Shown: positions 3,636 to 31,771 of the stretch, one piece after another
Position numbering within the stretch: the stretch's first letter is position 1
Layout: the number at the start of each line of letters is the position of its first letter
Source: Promethearchaeota archaeon Loki_b32
GTDB taxonomy: Archaea; Asgardarchaeota; Lokiarchaeia; Sigyniarchaeales; SOKP01
DNA: 33,892 nt
Direction of reading: 5' to 3'
Assembly (NCBI GenBank): GCA_005223125.1
Contig: NJBH01000038.1
Coordinates: 1-33,892 of the forward strand
Notes under the pieces: model-generated
Seen by the model: only the letters and a program-made list of their open reading frames with translations
Told to the model about the DNA's origin: nothing
Databases searched by the model: none
Position numbers and translations under genes: made by a program

Positions 3636-4805
3636 TTACTTATTAACTAATATTTCTTTGATTTTTTTGGCTCCTCCGTTATTAAAAAAATCCTTGATTT
3701 TATCAGAATACTCCGGTAAAAGTTGTAAGAACGGTAATATAGCACGAGAAAGAGAGCTAAATGCTTCATTTCCATCACCCATTATAAACATCTTATCTGG
3801 ACTCAAATTCTTAAAAATTTCAGGTAATATGTTAGTCAATTGAACTGCCAAGAATCTTTCATCTGCAGTACTCATTGCTTCAACCTGTTCTTTAAATCCT
3901 TCTGCCTGAGCGAGCATTTGTTGCTTAATATTCTCAGCTTCACCTTCTGCCTGAGCAATAAGTTTCCGTTTTATTTGTTGTGCTTCAGCATCCACTTCGA
4001 TTATTTTTTTCTGTCTTTCACCATCAGCCTCAATTATCTTACGCTCTCTTTCCTGTTCTGCGATAGCTATTTCTTTTTCTTTTCGCCTCAATTCAATCTC
4101 TCTTTCAACTAATTGTTCTTGAATACCGACCTCGTTCTTCACTTCTAATTCTCTAATTTTTGATTCTCTTTCAGCTTCAGCTTTAGCAATTCTCGCTTTT
4201 CTTAATTCTTCTGCTTGTTTAGTCGCTTCCATATTTTTCTTTAATTCCTGTTCTACAATAATGACTTCTAAAATTTCTAAAGATTCAATAACTATACCCC
4301 AATCAGCTGTTAATTCATGTAGATCCTTTTCAATAGGATCAATAATCTCTCTTCTTTCCCTTATGATCCTTTCCAATGGCATATTGGCACAGGTAGTACG
4401 AATTATCGCTTCTGCTGCACCTTTTAATATCTTTTCAACATAGTTTTCATCTCGCATGATCCATGAGACCGCACTGAATGCTTTTTCTGGATCAACAACT
4501 TTCCAAATTAGTAATCCCTCGATTTCAATGTTTTGGTACTCATTTGAAACTACCTGTTCATGTGCCTCAACAACAGTTTGGATACTGGTAGTTGGAATGA
4601 CGATATATTCATCTATCAATGGAAGAAGGAATAAACTTCCACCTAATCCTGCATGTTTTACTTTACCATTTCGTAAATGTATAACGAATTGATTGGTCTT
4701 AAACTTCCTATACCGAGCGGCAAGAAATATTACAAATAAGAATATGATTATACCTATTGTAACTCCGAGCCCTACAAACCAAGGATTTAATTCTTGAAAT
4801 AACAC
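3636..4805 (-). CDS. SPFH/band 7 flotillin-like membrane protein
   Basis: 389 residues: a single N-terminal membrane helix (about 8-30), then the SPFH domain (FVIHLRNGKVKHAGLGGSLF, IEIEGLLIWKVVDPEKAFSAV, about 40-200). A long Glu/Lys/Ala coiled coil (about 190-320) follows, with flotillin-like AQAEGEAE repeats, then a C-terminal oligomerisation region. Flotillins assemble membrane microdomains. The annotated start is GTG 14 bases after GGAGG, which is far. An in-frame ATA three codons earlier would sit five bases after it. Together with the NfeD-like gene upstream (5149-6120) it recalls the bacterial yuaF-floT pair. Confidence 0.85.
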   Translation of the reverse strand: MLFQELNPWFVGLGVTIGIIIFLFVIFLAARYRKFKTNQFVIHLRNGKVKHAGLGGSLFLLPLIDEYIVIPTTSIQTVVEAHEQVVSNEYQNIEIEGLLIWKVVDPEKAFSAVSWIMRDENYVEKILKGAAEAIIRTTCANMPLERIIRERREIIDPIEKDLHELTADWGIVIESLEILEVIIVEQELKKNMEATKQAEELRKARIAKAEAERESKIRELEVKNEVGIQEQLVEREIELRRKEKEIAIAEQERERKIIEADGERQKKIIEVDAEAQQIKRKLIAQAEGEAENIKQQMLAQAEGFKEQVEAMSTADERFLAVQLTNILPEIFKNLSPDKMFIMGDGNEAFSSLSRAILPFLQLLPEYSDKIKDFFNNGGAKKIKEILVNK

Positions 4806-5148: not shown

Positions 5149-6120
5149 TCACCTCCTTTTTTTTATTGATTTCTTATTATTATCAACCAATAAATAACCA
5201 TTTCTCACATCACAAATATACACTTTATCTCCTCGCTCAAAATTAAACGTATCGACAATCGGTTTGACATGCAATCTTTCAAATCTCATGGGTGTATTTG
5301 AAGATATTTTAATAATACCTCCCCTTTCATCAACACGCAATAAGACCTCTCCCTGAATCCCTATTAAATTTTTTGTTGATGAAATTCTGTAAAATCTTGA
5401 TTTTGCGATAATTTTCCATGCAAAATTTATGAGTTTTGTACTTAAGTAAGCTAATAAAGGTGCAATAAAAAGAATAGTAAATTGCAGTATTCCTTCAATT
5501 AATTGATATAATAAAATTCCTGAAATTCCAAAAATCAAAAATCCTGAACTGAATAAGAGCATGATTGGTGCGGGAGTAATTGTAGCAATAATATCAGTAT
5601 CAATTTCAACCTCAGCTTCTATATCAACATCAATATCGCTATCAATATCAACCTCCACATCAATATCTATGTCAACATCAATTTCCGCATCTATATCAAG
5701 ATCAGCATCAATATCAACGTCAATATCAATGTCTGCATCTACATCGACATCTACATCAACATCTGCATCTACGTCTAAATCTACGTCTACATCAACATCT
5801 GCATCTACGTCTAAATCTACGTCTACATCAACATCTGCATCTACGTCTAAATCTACGTCTACATCAATTTCAGCGTCTAGTTCACCCGCTCCAGTAATAT
5901 TTGATTCCATTTGAGCGAGAAATGTTGAAAATATTGATAAAATAATCCCTCCAAAAAATAACCCTACACAGGTACTAAAAAATATATTGTAAAACTCATT
6001 ATAAAATGATCCTACAAATGTTAAAACCAAACCAACAAAAATGATTAGCATGATTGCTATATTATCTTTTTTTTTCCATTGAATCTTAGATAATTTTCTA
6101 ATCGCCCTTGTTTGCATCAT
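5149..6120 (-). CDS. NfeD/YuaF-like membrane protein with long alternating-Asp repeat
   Basis: 323 residues. Residues about 20-70 contain two membrane helices (NIAIMLIIFVGLVLTFVGSF, FFSTCVGLFFGGIILSIFS). Residues about 80-180 are an unbroken alternating D-x-D-x repeat where x is V, L, A, I or E (for example DVDVDLDVDADV). A second pair of membrane helices follows (about 185-235). The C-terminal 80 residues (LIGIQGEVLLRVDERGGIIK ... RGDKVYICDVRNGYLLVD) fit the NfeD OB-fold. NfeD/YuaF proteins partner flotillins, matching the SPFH gene downstream. The repeat would put all Asp on one face of an extended strand or fibre, a plausible divalent-cation site. An antisense Ser/Thr repeat frame is a shadow. 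Confidence 0.75.
   Translation of the reverse strand: MMQTRAIRKLSKIQWKKKDNIAIMLIIFVGLVLTFVGSFYNEFYNIFFSTCVGLFFGGIILSIFSTFLAQMESNITGAGELDAEIDVDVDLDVDADVDVDVDLDVDADVDVDVDLDVDADVDVDVDVDADIDIDVDIDADLDIDAEIDVDIDIDVEVDIDSDIDVDIEAEVEIDTDIIATITPAPIMLLFSSGFLIFGISGILLYQLIEGILQFTILFIAPLLAYLSTKLINFAWKIIAKSRFYRISSTKNLIGIQGEVLLRVDERGGIIKISSNTPMRFERLHVKPIVDTFNFERGDKVYICDVRNGYLLVDNNKKSIKKRR
5759..5866 (-). repeat. Three perfect 36-base tandem repeats inside the Asp-repeat coding region
   Basis: The units 5759-5794, 5795-5830 and 5831-5866 are identical, start ACATCTGCATC on the plus strand, and encode DVDVDLDVDADV on the minus strand. Flanking copies are diverged. The identity at DNA level implies recent expansion or homogenisation and keeps the reading frame (36 = 12 codons). 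Confidence 0.95.
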
Positions 6121-15529: not shown

Positions 15530-16288
15530 GATGCTTTCCATGGATTAGGTTCTCCTGATATAACAATCAATGGAATAACAAATGATATGGGTAATAAAAT
15601 ATTAAAAAATCATTGTAATACCTTTAGAAAAATGATAAATAGTTCAAAAATTCAAAAAGCAACTAATCATATTGCAAAATTACCTACTAAAGGGTCAAAT
15701 AAGATTATTGATCTTATACCTCAAGGAAAAGCTTATCGAAGCAATCGACTTGGGGAAAAATTTATCGGTATTTAGAAAATAGCTGAATTATTTAAAGAAA
15801 AATTTAAAAAAGAATTATTATCAATACAAGAACAGAAATTAATGAAAGATATTGCACATATGAGAGTTAATCCCGAAGTAAAAACTCGAAAAGGTGAAAA
15901 TCAAGAAGGATATGTGCCTATCTTATATTTAAAAGAGTTTTCAAGGGATCTAATTCAGAACCTAGTAGATAATGATTGGCTTAAATATGATAAATCAAGA
16001 AGTGCAGTTGACTTTACTGCTAAGGCAGGCCATTGGAGAAGGTATTATCGTTTAGATTCATCAATGATTTCACCAACATTATTAACAGAATTTGCAAATG
16101 CAAGAATGTTTATACATCCATTCGAAAATAGGGGATTATCATTAAGAGAAGGTGCTAGATTGCAAACTTTTCCAGATGATTTTACTTTCTATGGGAGTTT
16201 TACATCTATATCACGGCAAATTGGAAATGCAGTGCCACCTTTACTTGCAAAATCCATAGCAAATCATATACTCAAGATCTTAGAATAA
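15530..16288 (+). pseudogene. C-terminal remnant of a cytosine-5 DNA methyltransferase
   Basis: One reading frame, broken only by TAG at 15773-15775, covers both 15587-15772 and 15776-16288. The last 60 residues carry motif IX (GLSLREGARLQTFPDDF) and motif X (SRQIGNAVPPLLAKSIA), and a GHWRRYYRLD segment precedes them, so this is the end of a C5 methyltransferase. The catalytic half (motif I FxGxG, PC loop, ENV, QRR) is absent upstream. Missing start, lost catalytic domain and an internal stop all point to a dead gene left from a restriction-modification or phage-borne enzyme. The ATG at 15842 could still give a 148-residue target-recognition fragment without activity. Confidence 0.8.
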
Positions 16289-19564: not shown

Positions 19565-20692
19565 TTGGCTAGATTAAAAATGAAATACTCTCATAAAACT
19601 ACTCATAGTTTTACTTCACCTATAGAATTTTGGAGATCAATTGAAAACTTATTTTTATCTTTTCCGTTTCGGAAAGATGGTAATATTTTTAAATCTCGAG
19701 ATGAATTAATAAAATATTATGAGATGAAAACACAAGAGGTTTTCGATATAGATGATGAGGGCCTGGATATTTATGGAAATAACTTTCGAAAAGAATTTTT
19801 TAAAAAATGGAATCGCGATATACTTTTAAGTGACATTCCAAAATCTAAGAAAAAGTTAATTTCTCCAGGGAATATTATCATAAAGACCAATCATTTAGGT
19901 AAAATAATTAAATTTTTATCAACAAATGTTTCTAATTCAGAGACAGTATTTAAATTCCAACATTTTATTGAAAGTATGTATCAATATCTTAGAGATATTT
20001 ATGAATTAGATCCAGATAATGATATAATAAGAAGTTATGGGTTGAGCAATAAAAATGCCTTTAATTATGAGCAAAACAAAGAAAGATTATTTGGATCTAA
20101 ATATTATGGTGGCCTATTAAAAACGGAAGAATTTAAAGACTACTTTAATTCTGCTTGTAGAAAATATACGGTCCCTTTTGTAATGTTTATACAAAAAAGG
20201 GAATGTTATGTTATTCATACTACGGATATTTTTGTTGAAAAAATAATACAAAATATTCCATTGTTTTTGAATCAATGGGATTTAAAACAAGCTAATAATT
20301 ATTTTATAAAAGCTTATAATGAGAGAGATAAAGGAAATTATCCCGAATCTCTAAATAATATTCGGAAGGGAATGGAAGAAATTAGAAATTATATTTTTAG
20401 TCGTTATTCAATAAAGCCAACAATATCATTAGGAAATGATTTAAGAAATTTATTCGAAAAGTACTGTAAAAAAGTGTTTGATTTCTCTAAGATACCTGAA
20501 AGTGATATTAATAAAGTAGACAATATTGTTTCTAAATTAAAAGAAAGTGTATCATTAGTGGTTAAAATTACTAATATTGGTTCTCACTCATCTTCAGTTC
20601 CAAGTTTAATCGAAGAAAATACTTCATTATTTTTATTAGGATTAGTTGCATCCATATTTCCATATATTTTTTACTTATTGAAATCAGATTAA
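19565..20692 (+). CDS. HEPN/Abi-like helical protein
   Basis: 375 residues. The N-terminal two-thirds (about 1-240) is unknown, with Trp/Phe-rich helices and a FVMFIQKRECYVIHTTDIFV strand pair. The C-terminal third looks like a HEPN/abortive-infection helical bundle: NERDKGNYPESLNNIRKGME, LRNLFEKYCKKVF, then ITNIGSHSSSVPS and LFLLGLVASIFPYIFYLL. The SH pair resembles the RNxxSH end of HEPN domains, but the Arg of the R-x4-6-H motif is Lys here, so RNase activity is doubtful. TTG at 19565 or ATG at 19580 may start it; neither has a Shine-Dalgarno sequence. It could be a phage-defence protein. Confidence 0.5.
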   Translation: MARLKMKYSHKTTHSFTSPIEFWRSIENLFLSFPFRKDGNIFKSRDELIKYYEMKTQEVFDIDDEGLDIYGNNFRKEFFKKWNRDILLSDIPKSKKKLISPGNIIIKTNHLGKIIKFLSTNVSNSETVFKFQHFIESMYQYLRDIYELDPDNDIIRSYGLSNKNAFNYEQNKERLFGSKYYGGLLKTEEFKDYFNSACRKYTVPFVMFIQKRECYVIHTTDIFVEKIIQNIPLFLNQWDLKQANNYFIKAYNERDKGNYPESLNNIRKGMEEIRNYIFSRYSIKPTISLGNDLRNLFEKYCKKVFDFSKIPESDINKVDNIVSKLKESVSLVVKITNIGSHSSSVPSLIEENTSLFLLGLVASIFPYIFYLLKSD

Positions 20693-21241: not shown

Positions 21242-21769
21242 ATAAGCAAGGAATTAATCTTAAAAATTTGTCTTTTTGGAGATAGAAATGTTGGAAAAAC
21301 TTCATTAACCCAAGCAGGTATTCAAAAAAAGGAAGTAAAGCCACCTGTATGCATAGATCTTGCGATTAAAAATTTAACAATAAAATCTTCTAAAATAATA
21401 CTTCAAATTTGGAATCTTAGAAGTGACCCTCAGTTTCAATTTATTTTCCCCATTTTTATGAGGGGCGTATCAGGAGGTATTTTTATGTATGATATCACTA
21501 ATTATTCCAGTTTAAGGAATATAGAAGATTGGTTAACATTATTCAAAGACAATTTATCTAATGATAAAAAGAAAATTCCTCTATTAATGGTTGGTGGAAA
21601 GTTAGACCTCCATAAAGAAAGAGTAATATCCAGAAAATACGCTAAGAAAATCTCAAAAAAATATAAAATCGTTAAATACTTCGAATGTTCCTCTAAAACT
21701 GGAGAAAATGTTGATAAGATTTTTGAATTTTTAACGAGATCAATACTGAAAGTTGAAAGTTATTCTTAG
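21242..21769 (+). CDS. Ras-like small GTPase (Asgard type), ATA start, degenerate switches
   Basis: 175 residues from ATA at 21242, six bases after AGGTG (21231-21235), giving SKELILKICLFGD as in Asgard Ras-family proteins. G1 is GDRNVGKTS (13-21), G4 is GGKLD (118-122, the Asgard variant of NKxD) and G5 is CSSKTG (149-154). A GTG/ATG/TTG search of the frame back to the stop at 21236 finds none before the Met at 21458, which would delete the P-loop. Switch I lacks the conserved Thr, and G3 DxxG is Asn58-Leu-Arg-Ser, so normal GTP hydrolysis is unlikely. It may be a nucleotide-binding decoy, a scaffold or an early pseudogene. Asgard genomes hold many such GTPases. Confidence 0.75.
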   Translation: MSKELILKICLFGDRNVGKTSLTQAGIQKKEVKPPVCIDLAIKNLTIKSSKIILQIWNLRSDPQFQFIFPIFMRGVSGGIFMYDITNYSSLRNIEDWLTLFKDNLSNDKKKIPLLMVGGKLDLHKERVISRKYAKKISKKYKIVKYFECSSKTGENVDKIFEFLTRSILKVESYS

Positions 21770-25125: not shown

Positions 25126-26229
25126 ATGTGTCTCAGCTTAAGCGATGATTTGATAAAAATTCAGCATAAAACAGATGAATTCAAATATGAATTTTTAAGA
25201 AAGTATATTCCTCTGTGGAATTCCATCATATGTGGAAAGAGTAGAAGATATAGAGCAATAGTCGAATCTCATGCAGGAACAGGTTATGTTACTCTTGGAA
25301 ATGAAAAAAAACATGGTTCAAGTCTAATTTTTCTAGAAAAAACGGCTTTAAAGCAAGAAGCGATGGATTTTCATTTTATTGAAATAAATCATAATAATTT
25401 TCGAGAACTTTCATCAAGTATAGACAAAATTATAAAAAAAGGGTTCTATTTTGCTGGGGATACAAAAGGAAAAGATCTTATTGGAGAAATAAAAAATGGC
25501 ATTCCTATTGCTAAAGAAGTTCCAAAATACCCCCCCACCACGAGATTTCCTGATAAAGAACATATTTTTTTATACAATGAAAATTGTGTTAAAGCAATAA
25601 AAAAAGTCTTAAAAAAAGTCGAGGGTAGACCAACTTTTTTTTTTATTGATCCCTGTGGTAAATTGGAATGGGAGCTTATTGAATTCATTATTATGAATAG
25701 ATTACTTGATGAGAATGAAAAGGTTAGATTAGATGAACAAGGAGAATTCTTTCAAGGAACAGAGTTATTTATCAATTTTTCTTGGGAAGCGATATCAAGA
25801 AATAAATCAGTAAAATTTGATGAAGAAAGGAGAAATATATTTTTTCAAGGAATGTATGGAATGAATTTAAATGAAATAAACATTGAATTGGATAATATTG
25901 AAAAGAAATTCAAATCAGAACAAAAAAGATATTATGAATTTCAGCTCTACTTAGAGATCTTTATGAATAAACTAAGAAGATGCTTTAAATTTGTATCTAA
26001 ACTTGATGTACTAGGTATAAAATCAATTAAAAATCCTGTCTATTGCTTAATTTTCTGTACAAATAATAACTCTGCAAAAAATTTATTCTTAAGTATTGAA
26101 GCGGTATTAAATAAGAAGAAAAAGGGCTATCTTGCTATGAAAAAAGTTGTAACAAATAAAAAAGAATTTACAATGGAAAAGTATAAAGAAATAATTGAAG
26201 GACACAGACTTTTAGATGATTTTCTATAA
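25126..26229 (+). CDS. tcmP: Three-Cys-motif partner protein (TcmP-like)
   Basis: 367 residues matching the TcmP family: HKTDEFKYEFLRKYIPLWNS near the N-terminus, RAIVESHAGTGYVT (an SAM-methyltransferase-like glycine loop), HFIEINHNNFREL, and FFFIDPCGKLEWELIEFII as a DPxG-type strand. TcmP proteins are a known but uncharacterised family found beside three-Cys radical-SAM-like proteins. Here the partner (26236-27009) is convergent, with only six bases between the two stops, which supports the pairing. The Rossmann-like features suggest nucleotide or SAM binding; the reaction is unknown. The pair is common in accessory regions, so a role in defence or mobile elements is an inference. Confidence 0.75.
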   Translation: MCLSLSDDLIKIQHKTDEFKYEFLRKYIPLWNSIICGKSRRYRAIVESHAGTGYVTLGNEKKHGSSLIFLEKTALKQEAMDFHFIEINHNNFRELSSSIDKIIKKGFYFAGDTKGKDLIGEIKNGIPIAKEVPKYPPTTRFPDKEHIFLYNENCVKAIKKVLKKVEGRPTFFFIDPCGKLEWELIEFIIMNRLLDENEKVRLDEQGEFFQGTELFINFSWEAISRNKSVKFDEERRNIFFQGMYGMNLNEINIELDNIEKKFKSEQKRYYEFQLYLEIFMNKLRRCFKFVSKLDVLGIKSIKNPVYCLIFCTNNNSAKNLFLSIEAVLNKKKKGYLAMKKVVTNKKEFTMEKYKEIIEGHRLLDDFL

Positions 26230-26235
26230 AAAAAT

Positions 26236-27009
26236 TTAAGAATATAAATAATTATAAACACTATCTTTTATTCTCAAGAAAGAATTAAAATAATCCAAGG
26301 ATTTGTTGAGGATTTTAGTTAAATTCTCTTTAGCTATAATTCCTCTAATAGCATTATAAAAATCCCTATTTTCTTCTTGAATATTAGTGGATTTTATATA
26401 ATTCATTTTGCCAATCCAAATGGATTCAGTTACATAAGGTTTTAACCTTTCAACTAGAACATAAGGATCTTTATCTAAGAATGGCTCAATTGATATACTA
26501 GTTTTAAATCCTTTTTTATAAGCATATTTAAGTGTTTCAAATCGTTCTTCAAAGGAAGGTGCATCTGGCTCCCAAAATTTAAGTCTGTCATTATTATAAG
26601 AAGTAATAGTAAATCGAAATTGAATTAATTCTTTTTTATCTCTAAATCTTTCGCAAATCGTTTTAATACATGCTAATACGGGTTTAGATGTAATTAAAAT
26701 CTCGTTTCCCGCATTAACCAATTTTTCTAGGACAATTAAGCAAGTATTTAGAGTCTCTTCTGTGATATCATGAGAAGTTGGAAACATCACTCTTCCTTTT
26801 CTCTTTCCATATTGTCTCTTAATATTTTTTAAATTAGGCTCCATAATTTTCCATGTCACTTTGGTCTTACGTTTAAATCGAATCGCCATTTTTTTGGCAT
26901 AGCAATAGCGGCAATTATTTGAACATCCATAATATAGATTTATATTACTATCTGCCCATTCTTTTGTACCTTGTGTAATTTTATGAGATTTAACTTTTAG
27001 AGATTTCAT
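26236..27009 (-). CDS. Radical SAM protein, three-Cys partner of TcmP
   Basis: 257 residues with the cluster motif YYGCSNNCRYCYAKKMA: Cys29, Cys33 and Cys36 in CxxxCxxC. The pattern resembles the Gp37/Gp68 and spore-photoproduct-lyase-like radical SAM groups. Further conserved-looking segments are RVMFPTSHDIT, NEILITSKPVLACI, FRFTITSYNNDRLKFWEPDA and FKTSISIEPFLD, consistent with a TIM-barrel that binds a [4Fe-4S] cluster and S-adenosylmethionine. Neighbour of TcmP in a tail-to-tail arrangement. It might act on nucleic acid, as the photoproduct-lyase resemblance hints, but no substrate is known. Confidence 0.75.
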   Translation of the reverse strand: MKSLKVKSHKITQGTKEWADSNINLYYGCSNNCRYCYAKKMAIRFKRKTKVTWKIMEPNLKNIKRQYGKRKGRVMFPTSHDITEETLNTCLIVLEKLVNAGNEILITSKPVLACIKTICERFRDKKELIQFRFTITSYNNDRLKFWEPDAPSFEERFETLKYAYKKGFKTSISIEPFLDKDPYVLVERLKPYVTESIWIGKMNYIKSTNIQEENRDFYNAIRGIIAKENLTKILNKSLDYFNSFLRIKDSVYNYLYS

Positions 27010-28557: not shown

Positions 28558-30753
28558 TTGAAGCTAAAAAAAAAATATGAAGAATTGAAAGATGATTTAT
28601 TAAATGTTTATAAAGAGACTTCTTCTCGTATATTAAATATCTTAGAGACTCCCGGTTCGACAATAATAAAAGCTACTGACTTGGAAAGTAATGGTAAAGT
28701 ACCTTTAGAGAAGATTCTTATACTTTCTAAGAATATGAGACAAGCTATTGAAAAGTTTAATAAGACTATAAAGAATATAGGCTTTGCTGATACCCCTGAA
28801 ACAGGCTCACTTTTTTATATTGCAGAATATGGAGGATCTAAGACTCAATTTATTGAATTAATAAACAGTATTATCAATGATAATAAAGAGAGAAGTATAG
28901 CACCTTTTAATAGAGTAATTCCAATTGTATTTAATGGTATCATAGATTTATCTGCGACCTACTTAGGAGAACAAATCGAACAACAGACGGCAAAGATTTT
29001 ATCAAGAGAATTGGATCGCCTTGAAAGAGAACGCAAAACACCTTCAGAGATTCGCGCATTTGAGAGTTTCTTAAACCTACTTGTAGAGTTTAGAAAGGTA
29101 AAGAATGCTCCAGAACACTTAGAGAGAATCCATTCTTTATTAACTGATGTTGAGAGAACCAGTCATGGTTCTGTTGGATTGGGTTTAAAGATTTCTAAAA
29201 TTCGAAATGAACTTTCACAACTCCCCTTGATTGATGAAGAGAAATTATTCAATATAGTTTTTGAAATAATGAAGTTTGCTTCACGTTACAATGTAGTTTT
29301 TATCTTCTTCTTTGATGAATGTGATGAATGGTTAGCAAAAGGTGAACAAGAGTCTATTTGGGATCAGAATTTCATAAAAAGGCAATACTTTTTTAGAAAA
29401 CTATATGATTCCATTTCTGAATTAAGGCTCTATCAAATCTATTGTTTTACTCCTAGAATTCATGAAGCTTTGAGAAGTGAAAAAAGTGATAGAGTTCCTG
29501 GTATACATCGATTATCATCTGATTTAACAAAATATATTTCTTCATCCAGTTCACACTCTTTAATTAGAGAAGAAGGCATTTATCAAGCGAATGAAGCAAC
29601 TGAAGCGGTTCTTAAATGGTTAATTCTATTGGAAAAATCTGTTCATTTGGCAGATCCTACGATATTCGACTCGTTTTTAGATAAATTAATAAATAAAATA
29701 GATAATAAATTATCTCGAAGGAAGGCAAATGGGACTATAATAGCTGCTATCAGAGCCTATATACAATTAGCAGAGTATATTAAATATGGTCAGAATCAAT
29801 ACGATTCCGCTATGAAAACACCCGCTCATCAATTGGCTATTGGGAAGATAATCGAGGATACTTTTTCAAGTTACCTGAATTTCTTAAACTTTAGTTTTGA
29901 AAAGAAACATCATGGAGTTGGTGGAGGAAAATCAGTTGATGGCAGGTTCTCTATGGGTGTAAAAGGGAGAGAATTTGATCTCTATGCTGAAATTAAATCT
30001 TTTAATAAACCTGAGTCTTTTGAAAAGGGAAAGGCAGATCAGGTGATTAACTGTGTTCAGAATTTACATCAAAAAGTAATATTCTTCTTGTTCTGTCATG
30101 GCTTGACTAGCGAATTTGTGAAGGATAAATTTTATGGATGGAGGTTCCATGGATTGATATCTTCTGATACAGACTTAGAATTAATTATTCCTATTATTAT
30201 CAACGATCAGACTCTTTTAAATTGTCTTGTTGGCTTTGAGAAAATACCATCTTATCAACTTCCTGAAAAATTTGATAACTTTGATATTCTTGTAAGATTA
30301 TTAGCAAAAGATTTTCATGGTAAATTAATGAATCTGTTTCCTGTTCCTGTAAAAGAACCCGAGATCCCTTTTGAAGCTCCTGAGGTAAAGGAAGCTGAGG
30401 AGGAAGTTCCTTCTTATGATGATACTTATAGGAAATTATTGAGGAAAATGAAGACCTATGATGATACTACAATCAGAACTGCTGTTGATGTGATTACTTC
30501 TTTAGGTACGAATAAAAAAGTGTATACATTTAGAAAAGAACATATTCTAAAAAACAATATATCTTCCTTATTAAAAGATTCATTTGATGATGCTATTGCC
30601 CTCTTGAAAAGAATTAATGTTATTAAAGAATCAACGAGCGGCGTTCACTTCAATTGGGACATATTTGAGAAATCTGATATTAAAACTGATCAGGAAGGAT
30701 TAATGATTGAAATCTTTAAAGAGTTCTTAAAGAAAATTCAAGATTATGAGTGA
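28558..30753 (+). CDS. P-loop ATPase with possible PD-(D/E)xK nuclease domain
   Basis: 731 residues. After an N-terminal helix, AEYGGSKT (89-96) is a deviant Walker A in which Ser replaces the Gly before Lys. Walker B is VVFIFFFDECDEW (246-258, Asp253-Glu254). A sensor-like IYCFTPRIHEALRSE (294-308) follows, so the first half is an AAA/STAND-like ATPase. Residues about 420-515 look like a restriction-type fold: an alpha helix with Glu433, then GREFDLYAEIKSF (Asp474, Glu478, Lys480) and VIFFLFCHGL. The spacing of the motif residues is tight, so nuclease activity is unproven. An acidic linker (595-620) leads to a C-terminal helical, winged-helix-like region. It resembles BREX-type ATPases in plan only. 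TTG start; two genes follow closely. Confidence 0.6.
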   Translation: MKLKKKYEELKDDLLNVYKETSSRILNILETPGSTIIKATDLESNGKVPLEKILILSKNMRQAIEKFNKTIKNIGFADTPETGSLFYIAEYGGSKTQFIELINSIINDNKERSIAPFNRVIPIVFNGIIDLSATYLGEQIEQQTAKILSRELDRLERERKTPSEIRAFESFLNLLVEFRKVKNAPEHLERIHSLLTDVERTSHGSVGLGLKISKIRNELSQLPLIDEEKLFNIVFEIMKFASRYNVVFIFFFDECDEWLAKGEQESIWDQNFIKRQYFFRKLYDSISELRLYQIYCFTPRIHEALRSEKSDRVPGIHRLSSDLTKYISSSSSHSLIREEGIYQANEATEAVLKWLILLEKSVHLADPTIFDSFLDKLINKIDNKLSRRKANGTIIAAIRAYIQLAEYIKYGQNQYDSAMKTPAHQLAIGKIIEDTFSSYLNFLNFSFEKKHHGVGGGKSVDGRFSMGVKGREFDLYAEIKSFNKPESFEKGKADQVINCVQNLHQKVIFFLFCHGLTSEFVKDKFYGWRFHGLISSDTDLELIIPIIINDQTLLNCLVGFEKIPSYQLPEKFDNFDILVRLLAKDFHGKLMNLFPVPVKEPEIPFEAPEVKEAEEEVPSYDDTYRKLLRKMKTYDDTTIRTAVDVITSLGTNKKVYTFRKEHILKNNISSLLKDSFDDAIALLKRINVIKESTSGVHFNWDIFEKSDIKTDQEGLMIEIFKEFLKKIQDYE

Positions 30754-30762
30754 TGATAAAAG

Positions 30763-31353
30763 ATGGCACTTGAATTAAATTCTAGCCGGATTAAATTTGG
30801 AGATCTTTTAACCTTAGTAGATGAAGCTATTAATTCCGGAAAAAGTATACAGATAAAAAGAAATATGATATCTCAGGATAATAATAATATGAAATTTATT
30901 AGGTGGCTCGAAAAGCACAGAATTATTTCGCTTACCCCAATTGGAGTTGAAGCCCCTAAAAAGATATTAATAAAATCACGTAGTAGAAAAGTTGAGATTT
31001 CACTTCAATTAAAAGCATTAAATTTGCCAATAAAAGAGATTGCGAGGGAATTCAATGTAAAAGTAGCTACTGCTCAAGGATATTTAAAAGAATTTGATAG
31101 TATAACTGAAGATTATATAAAGATTTTAAAGTTTATTTTAGATCTGAAAGGCATTACCCTAGATACAAATATCACCGAATTTCCCTCATTTCCCATCAGA
31201 GTTAGTATTGGAATTCTTAAAGGTAAATTACCACAAAATGAATTTGAACAAGTAGTTTCAATTTCAGAACAGAATAGATATATTAAGAAAATAACAGGTC
31301 AGAAATTAGGGACAACTGATCTTTCTATTCTATTACCTAAAAAATCAAAATAG
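30763..31353 (+). CDS. Helix-turn-helix protein of the ATPase operon
   Basis: 196 residues. Residues about 75-112 form an HTH (SRKVEISLQLKALNLPIKEI then AREFNVKVATAQGYLKEFDS), like those of invertases and sigma-factor-type regulators. An N-terminal winged or helical part (about 10-65) and a C-terminal strand-rich end flank it. It begins nine bases after the ATPase stop with GAGTGATG upstream, so translation is likely coupled. It could recruit the ATPase to DNA or regulate the operon. No family recognised. Confidence 0.6.
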   Translation: MALELNSSRIKFGDLLTLVDEAINSGKSIQIKRNMISQDNNNMKFIRWLEKHRIISLTPIGVEAPKKILIKSRSRKVEISLQLKALNLPIKEIAREFNVKVATAQGYLKEFDSITEDYIKILKFILDLKGITLDTNITEFPSFPIRVSIGILKGKLPQNEFEQVVSISEQNRYIKKITGQKLGTTDLSILLPKKSK

Positions 31354-31372
31354 AAAATCAAAGGTGAATTAT

Positions 31373-31771
31373 ATGACAATAACAATTAAGGAAATAATTA
31401 AAAGTGTATTTCATGCCATGAACAGTCAAGGGATTTCTTTATCGGAATCTGATTATATTCTAATTGAAGAGAAAGCGAATAAGATTATTGAAGATCTAAT
31501 GGAGTCGTATGAGAAAGGAGATAATATGTATACAAGATTTTCTGTAACAATTCCTTGTGATATAACACAAGCTTCATTTCGAAACAAAACAGTAAGAGAA
31601 TTTATAAAAGCCATAGATCCTACAGTAGAGATGGAATTTGAGTTAAGTAATAAAGCATTAACTTTAGTGGATAGTTATGATGTTTTTTGTGGGGAGATAA
31701 GTACCTTCCCATGCCATATGACTGTTAGTGAGAAGAAAAGACCTTATTCTTACAATTTTGAAGAAAGCTGA
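31373..31771 (+). CDS. Small third gene of the ATPase operon, unknown
   Basis: 132 residues from the ATG at 31373, six bases after AAGGTG (31361-31366). The upstream GTG at 31364 is part of that Shine-Dalgarno sequence and is not a likely start. An N-terminal helical half (IKEIIKSVFHAMNSQGISLS, DYILIEEKANKIIEDLMESY) precedes a strand-rich half (YTRFSVTIPCDITQASFRNK, VEMEFELSNKALTLVDSY). No family recognised. Nineteen bases after the HTH gene, so the same transcript. Perhaps an inhibitor or specificity subunit. Confidence 0.6.
   Translation: MTITIKEIIKSVFHAMNSQGISLSESDYILIEEKANKIIEDLMESYEKGDNMYTRFSVTIPCDITQASFRNKTVREFIKAIDPTVEMEFELSNKALTLVDSYDVFCGEISTFPCHMTVSEKKRPYSYNFEES

Follow-up and report, generated by a model that had tools for sequence, protein, structure and literature searches.

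In Promethearchaeota archaeon Loki_b32, a Lokiarchaeon and as such a member of an archaeal group akin to the ancestors of complex cells, lie three tightly spaced genes that sequence searches fail to name: what do they form together? They occupy positions 28558 to 31771 of contig NJBH01000038.1 (assembly GCA_005223125.1), and the window analysed here is that entire contig of 33,892 nucleotides (G000:C65; G-numbers denote genomes of a 227-genome set of the Asgard phylum, G000 being the window's own genome, 4.13 megabases in 71 contigs). An earlier note, made from the letters alone, had proposed a three-gene candidate defence module comprising an ATPase-nuclease, a helix-turn-helix (HTH) protein and a small protein. 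Here we report a two-gene core, in which a chain joining a predicted ATPase to a predicted nuclease is accompanied by an HTH partner and belongs to no family known by sequence. The defensive role is plausible, as an inference. The third gene, found in two of the 227 genomes and absent from the related genome G029, is accessory and, judged by its distribution, a genus-level addition.

The three open reading frames (ORFs) run head to tail on the forward strand with spacers of 9 and 19 bases, as the note had read them. ORF1 (28558..30753; 731 residues, TTG start) encodes a single chain in which a predicted ATPase of AAA+ type (ORC/Cdc6/TnsC-like) is followed by a predicted PD-(D/E)xK-like nuclease, ORF2 (30763..31353; 196 residues) the HTH partner, with the HTH at about residues 75-112, and ORF3 (31373..31771; 132 residues) the accessory protein, whose homologue was found only in G007:C10. 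ORF3 had been listed as 31364-31771 with a GTG start; because the homologue begins at the position of the ATG at 31373 instead, we place its start there, behind the Shine-Dalgarno-like AAGGTGA at 31361-31367 that the note had rightly pointed out. Differences at codon positions 1, 2 and 3 amount to 0.35, 0.21 and 0.51 for ORF1 against G029 (724 codons), 0.41, 0.30 and 0.62 for ORF2 against G029 (193 codons), and 0.32, 0.18 and 0.51 for ORF3 against G007 (130 codons); with position 2 lowest and position 3 highest, all three fit coding genes under purifying selection. Some caution attaches to the start of ORF1, where the window has TTG, both G007 copies ATG and G029 TTA, the first standard start of the G029 relative lying further inside.

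Relatives were collected with a profile of five sequences aligned over their length, ORF1 and four others, which form type A (G000 and G029) and type B (G077, G008 and G034). Any match to this A/B profile was confined to 13 of the 227 genomes, and near-full-length relatives to these five, the window's own included; the G008 relative runs off its contig. Archaeal phyla beyond Asgard were reached by two pattern scans of limited sensitivity; a contig pattern scan with the single ORF1 protein gave no loci, and its repeat with the alignment gave four. Attempts to name the family from sequence alone, by hmmscan of ORF1-3 and their relatives and by profile searches of the PDB, named nothing. At an expectation value (E) of 0.001, the threshold for Pfam, NCBIfam and PADLOC unless given otherwise, ORF1 matched none of these three databases, the other four aligned sequences had no match in Pfam or PADLOC, and the five-sequence profile had none in the PDB at the same value. 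The general Pfam AAA cut-off was passed by single members of two further groups described below, types C (L041, E 5.1e-5) and D (L054, E 5.8e-5).

The fold class of the ATPase is a matter of prediction. In an AlphaFold model of ORF1 made from the five sequences (mean predicted local distance difference test score, pLDDT, 58.3; predicted template modelling score, pTM, 0.42), residues from about 40 to 408 form an AAA+ domain with a predicted ORC/Cdc6-clade fold (ORC, origin recognition complex). In the VIA structure comparison the 28 top rows are all ORC/Cdc6 chains, at Z 13.2 to 11.1, led by ORC chain 7jk6_D (Z 13.2, 175 aligned residues, 2.9 A); archaeal Cdc6/Orc1 2qby_B reaches Z 12.7, TnsC (7ufi) 11.1 and RdrA 10.8. 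Foldseek, too, puts ORC chains in front; next come a chain from a BrxC complex, MspJI and FokI. A Walker B-like segment, FFFDECDEWL (residues 250-259; 29305..29334, forward strand), has the hhhhDE pattern, with D253 and E254 invariant in the five aligned sequences, as are YGGSKTQ (91-97) and S386-R387-R388. The Walker A segment YGGSKTQF (residues 91-98; 28828..28851, forward strand), identical in four of the five and YGGSKTQY in the fifth, is deviant, reading SKT at the canonical GKT position. The P-loop ATPase motifs of the earlier note therefore hold for the predicted AAA+ domain and Walker B but not for Walker A; because of this departure we call the predicted ATPase ORC-like rather than file it within the ORC/Cdc6 clade, and ATP hydrolysis by ORF1 is not assured.

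The claim of an EIK motif in a restriction-like segment stood up. EIK is residues 478-480, with D461 (29938-29940) upstream of E478 and K480 (within 29989-29997), these three being the catalytic candidates; D461-G462, E478-I479-K480 and Q495 are invariant in the five aligned sequences, and the D...E-x-K signature of PD-(D/E)xK enzymes is present in types A and B. The domain modelled alone (residues 396-594; 29743..30339, forward strand; pTM 0.58) displays the alpha-beta-beta-beta-alpha-beta core in a predicted model of pLDDT 65.6, its elements including strands 63-65, 67-73 and 76-86, helix 98-108 and strand 111-117 in model numbering, and D461, E478, K480 and Q495 fall on the expected strands and helix. 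In VIA the leading rows are PaqCI (Z 6.5), MunI (6.4), Bax1 (5.9) and the McrBC chain 6hz4_M (5.6), which we take to be McrC; the first eleven, which also include Can2, Cdn1, BstEII and XisH, span Z 6.5-5.2 over 102-126 residues and are for the most part PD-(D/E)xK superfamily enzymes. Since the leading rows agree on one superfamily and the positions of the four residues fit, the predicted PD-(D/E)xK assignment is well supported, and structure prediction, which the note had suggested as a check, favours that fold for the isolated domain.

The remaining C-terminal region of ORF1 (about residues 620-731; 30415..30750, forward strand) is modelled with low confidence. Its counterpart in type B relatives is similar to an extension at the C-terminus of C5 cytosine methyltransferases: with its C-terminal portion the profile matches such extensions in G213 (E 4.8e-11), G055 and G057 (E 7.7e-6 and 2.1e-5), and BLASTP of one methyltransferase/type B pair gave 33% identity over 101 residues (E 1e-8). 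The C5 methyltransferases that share the region with type B ATPase-nucleases (L044 4686-5999, L042 6263-7597 and L043 4151-5485) adjoin a putative HNH-like or Vsr-like gene.

Type C has five near-full-length members in four of the 227 genomes; in a single hhalign comparison with the A/B profile (probability 77, E 2e-5) all motifs are in register, with YGGSKTQF opposite YGMGKSQF, and the type C Walker A has GKS and misses the first G. Type D has three near-full-length members in three genomes of one genus, and a fourth genome holds a partial match. Type D resembles the type C ATPases (hhalign probability 97.4, E 1.2e-11) and types A and B weakly (probability 6.8). Its Walker A is fully canonical in all three members, unlike that of types A and B, and its alignment shows no conserved DG..EI(K/T) nuclease motif. 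In G117, G127 and G104:C118 (stretches L052, L053 and L054) partner and ORC-like ATPase genes keep the same order, flanked by putative DUF84-like and amidohydrolase-like genes.

In all 13 loci examined (two of type A, three B, five C and three D) a partner gene adjoins the ATPase gene in the same direction, with gaps of -35 to +149 bases; it lies 3' of ORF1 in type A and 5' of the ATPase gene in types B-D. The HTH matches of ORF2 are weak and below cut-off (HTH_40 E 0.003, HTH_28 E 0.0046; in the G029 homologue HTH_23 E 0.0014), though the HTH partner that the note had placed after ORF1 is supported. Type A partners are HTH proteins, those of type B carry a C2H2-like finger or a winged HTH ahead of a common C-terminal part, and those of types C and D form one family of 240-275 residues (hhalign probability 96.6, E 6.1e-10); groups A, B and C/D show no detectable similarity to one another. 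The plain reading of these comparisons would be a constant cutter with variable DNA-binding partners. As for ORF3, labels as PADLOC PDC-M62A (E 0.0013) or Pfam AGS_C (E 0.1) were rejected as too weak, and the G007 homologue has no PADLOC match.

Modules of this family are swapped at fixed sites. In contig C10 of G007, a genome of the same genus as the window, a left block of 137 bases matches window 28559-28695, codons 1-46 of ORF1, at 76% identity; abutting it are 2.6 kilobases (kb) that share 79% identity with the G017 type C module; and 114 bases later a right block of 484 aligned columns matches window 31273-31752, where ORF2 ends and most of ORF3 lies, at 66% identity. A separate search with the ORF2 profile finds the ORF2 tail at G007:C10:6077-6178 (E 1.4e-6), and ORF3 is still open there at 52-53% identity. 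The ORF1 profile found nothing in G017, so the type C module there is without the ORF1 leader. These alignments indicate that in G007:C10 the central part of a window-like operon gave way to a type C module and that ORF3 stayed open. A second copy, G007:C84, has the same leader and no ORF3, and the left junction is thus seen on two contigs and the right junction on one. We considered whether window ORF1 might instead be the chimera, as its DNA similarity to G007 stops and that to G029 starts at 28695, and rejected this; since the alignment with the G029 protein runs the whole length, interrupted at 28695 by a gap of a single codon, the replacement is placed in G007. When the two G007 copies are compared (L029 2191-6030 against L028), their identity is 0.95-0.99 in the leader and the greater part of the partner gene, 0.76-0.87 across almost the whole ATPase gene and 0.92 in the last 90 bases of that gene, a pattern that suggests gene conversion. 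Decay is also evident: G041 has a copy with in-frame stops, G074 only the C-terminal part, G007 the first 46 ORF1 codons and G021 an ORF2 tail with stops. Two similar genes lie near a type C module (L028 4572-5492 and 7763-8665), and R.HinP1I is matched by two neighbour ORFs (E 3.7e-6), probably this pair.

A second such site is likely in the 3' surroundings of herA, which hold a type C module in G017, a type B module in G008 and a CBASS-like set (CBASS, cyclic-oligonucleotide-based antiphage signalling system) in G013. The G017 module lies 0.25 kb past herA in convergent orientation, that herA being full-length in three of the 19 genomes of the genus (G017, G007 and G014); in G008 the last 46 herA codons remain 0.3 kb ahead of the type B module; and in G013 about the last 52 codons, with a stop, lie near another ATPase gene, 3 kb from a SAVED-domain-like gene (PDB E 9e-4) and 4.5 kb from a CD-NTase gene (PDB E 5.7e-24). 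Synteny is partial: a gene upstream of herA is common to G008 and G017:C42 (76% over 202 residues), G008 has another in common with G017's second herA locus (87% over 273), and the G013 stretch, at a contig end, has only the herA tail in common. These comparisons make it likely that the herA 3' ends are one ancestral slot. A search of the 19 genus genomes with the flanks of the G017 module showed no empty site; one flank gene is present in G017 only, and the herA flank is variable. The CBASS-like set of G013 (G013:C73; L111 1-6448) comprises the CD-NTase, a SAVED/Cap4-like protein and a possible E2-like protein, the last without a PDB match at E 0.1, and the nearby ATPase of 576 residues has a putative nuclease-like and helix-hairpin-helix-like C-terminus. 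A further herA tail in G017:C42, incomplete at 32 codons (53%, E 3e-4; L115 12309-12404), lies about 20 kb from the intact gene (L039 4602-6311), possibly flanking an island.

What, then, might the module do? We see an even chance that ORF1 and ORF2 form an undescribed two-gene, restriction-like module of defence against invaders. In this reading we infer that DNA is the target, that ATP gates the cutting, that ORF2 serves as adaptor and that the module exists for defence: ORF2, or in sister loci one of its unrelated counterparts, would bind to DNA, or to a mark that foreign DNA carries, and load ORF1, which would assemble through its ORC/Cdc6-like AAA+ domain; ATP binding or hydrolysis would be the switch, the PD-(D/E)xK domain would cut DNA, and ORF3 would be an optional extra. 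As far as comparative data can tell, the module evolves like antiviral defence genes: its occurrence is patchy, copies are often broken and a relative may take over the same site. This replacement and decay, not the neighbours, give the defence reading more support than the earlier note could draw on. A bolder version, which we offer only tentatively, is a lineage-specific Asgard restriction class that would combine an ORC/Cdc6-like AAA+-nuclease with exchangeable, unrelated adaptors, its variants interchanging within operons, and that would have arisen from, or been domesticated into, a chromosomal ORC-like pair lacking the nuclease motif.

Several results weigh against a restriction-like defence module. 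The canonical Walker A, GxxxxGK[ST], is absent, all five type A and B sequences having YGGSKT; all five type C members lack the E-x-K lysine, with EIT or EST in its place; and model confidence is low (mean pLDDT 58 for the whole of ORF1 and 66 for the nuclease part). The nuclease Z values are all below 8, the tool's safe level, with unrelated rows from Z 4.7, and Foldseek gave E not below 0.02 for the nuclease model and no row at E of 0.001 or less for the ORF1 model. The viral contigs searched held no relatives of ORF1, type C, ORF2 or ORF3, and phage and plasmid searches with ORF1 returned none. Nor do the neighbours help: 76 neighbour ORFs (at least 110 residues, within 10 kb, 10 loci; module genes dropped, as were ORFs truncated at a stretch end whose remaining length was no multiple of three) matched 28 PADLOC families, against 80 for 103 of 204 control ORFs, about every second one hand-picked, from 20 stretches in eight genomes, in a comparison that counts families, not proteins, and in which a large share of the control list seems to stem from a single helicase. 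Among the matches listed (25 of 74), the neighbour families are mostly metabolic or cellular.

The type D pair, in the three genomes fetched, stands in a conserved, housekeeping-like context, and this recurrence of gene order and putative flanks, together with the homology of both its genes to those of type C (probabilities 97.4 and 96.6), would suit an ORC-like ATPase and DNA-binding partner working in replication, repair or segregation, types A-C being diverged paralogues. The earlier note had held that homologues in housekeeping contexts without the HTH neighbour would tell against it; the type D context is of that kind, but the partner is kept and no conserved nuclease motif is present. 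With types A-C sporadic, decayed in several genomes and set in differing contexts, and the direct A-D similarity weak, we think a housekeeping complex unlikely. Part of a mobile element, either a TnsC/TnsA-like pair for target selection and cutting or a module controlling excision or replication, is rather improbable. The TnsC row (Z 11.1) and the XisH-family rows (Z 5.2 and 5.0) are in keeping with it, as are the flanks of the G000 and G007:C10 operons, dissimilar beyond the shared blocks, and the partial second herA tail about 20 kb from the intact gene in G017:C42; but the 20 window ORFs scanned contain no transposase or integrase by Pfam (element ends were not searched for), nor do the matches listed (25 of 74 families) for the 76 neighbours, and the G007 homology blocks end inside genes, as in recombination between alleles. 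An abortive-infection or toxin-antitoxin system, with ORF1 as an ATP-controlled toxic nuclease, ORF2 as a repressor-like antitoxin and ORF3 as immunity protein or sensor, would account for a small HTH partner adjoining a nuclease and for ORF3 remaining open after the module was replaced; the shift of the partner from after ORF1 in type A to before the ATPase in types B-D, the lack of detectable relationship among partner groups and the presence of ORF3 in just two genomes make it a long shot.

The surroundings of the operon in the window bear out the earlier note in part. The claimed TcmP pair holds for TcmP itself (25126..26229, forward strand; TIGR04474 E 8.4e-30; PADLOC candidate PDC-M41A E 2.1e-9), whereas its radical SAM (S-adenosylmethionine) neighbour (26236..27009, reverse strand; PADLOC candidate PDC-M41B E 4.4e-5) is DUF5131-like at E 2.2e-4, below cut-off. 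The methyltransferase remnant is a C5-methylase C-terminus (15842-16288; PF00145 E 7.9e-16), but it ends 12 kb upstream rather than adjoining the operon; one further near-full-length match lies in G000:C68. The gene called HEPN-like (19565-20692) has no Pfam match at E 0.01 and stays a putative HEPN gene. Elsewhere in the window are a putative membrane protein ORF with a long acidic DVDVD-type repeat (5149-6120), an adjoining putative stomatin-like ORF (3636-4805) and a Ras-family ORF (21458-21769; PF00071 E 5.3e-20, covering profile positions 69-161 of 162).

No publication describing the module was found among titles and abstract starts, a partial coverage of the literature that leaves its unpublished status unproven. 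Surveys of archaeal defence that use DefenseFinder (PMC11291487) or Padloc and DefenseFinder with REBASE (PMC12988326) would probably miss the ORF1 family because, at E 0.001, nothing in PADLOC, Pfam or NCBIfam matches it. If the module is defensive, ORC/Cdc6-like ATPases, the machinery of origin recognition, would also have served as one-chain DNA-cutting immune proteins, and this in archaea with close ties to eukaryotes. That one variant has taken another's place within an operon predicts that both do the same job on different targets.

Among known systems, HerA-NurA and HerA-DUF4297 likewise combine an ATPase with a nuclease, a putative nurA-herA pair adjoins the G017 type C module and PADLOC HerA models match one neighbour ORF; HerA, however, is an FtsK/HerA-type translocase, an ATPase class other than the ORC-like one of ORF1. 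In Tn7 an ORC-like AAA+ protein, TnsC (7ufi, Z 11.1), works with TnsA, a PD-(D/E)xK nuclease, whereas in ORF1 the nuclease is fused, an HTH protein is the partner, and the 20 window ORFs scanned include no transposase, the DDE type of Tn7-like elements among them. McrBC, in which an AAA+ NTPase drives a PD-(D/E)xK nuclease, offers the same pairing, with chain 6hz4_M (Z 5.6) among the nuclease rows; ORF1 differs in fusing both in one chain and in its ORC-like AAA+ domain, and no McrB or McrC match was found in Pfam, NCBIfam or PADLOC. BrxC of BREX (bacteriophage exclusion) has about 1200-1300 residues and acts with PglX and PglZ, and DUF499 works with a methyltransferase and a helicase (PMC12839542); ORF1 has 731 residues and its own nuclease, ORF1-3 and seven neighbours have no PglZ, BrxX or helicase match, and neither PglZ nor a methyltransferase with helicase accompanies the ATPase in or next to the operon. 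The likeness lies in the ATPase: Foldseek lists chain 9zll_D of a BrxC-BrxB-PglZ complex for ORF1 (E 7.4e-3), and in BREX, DUF499 and DUF6079 systems, according to PMC12839542, ORC/Cdc6-clade AAA+ ATPases with DNA-binding domains are central parts of the defence locus.

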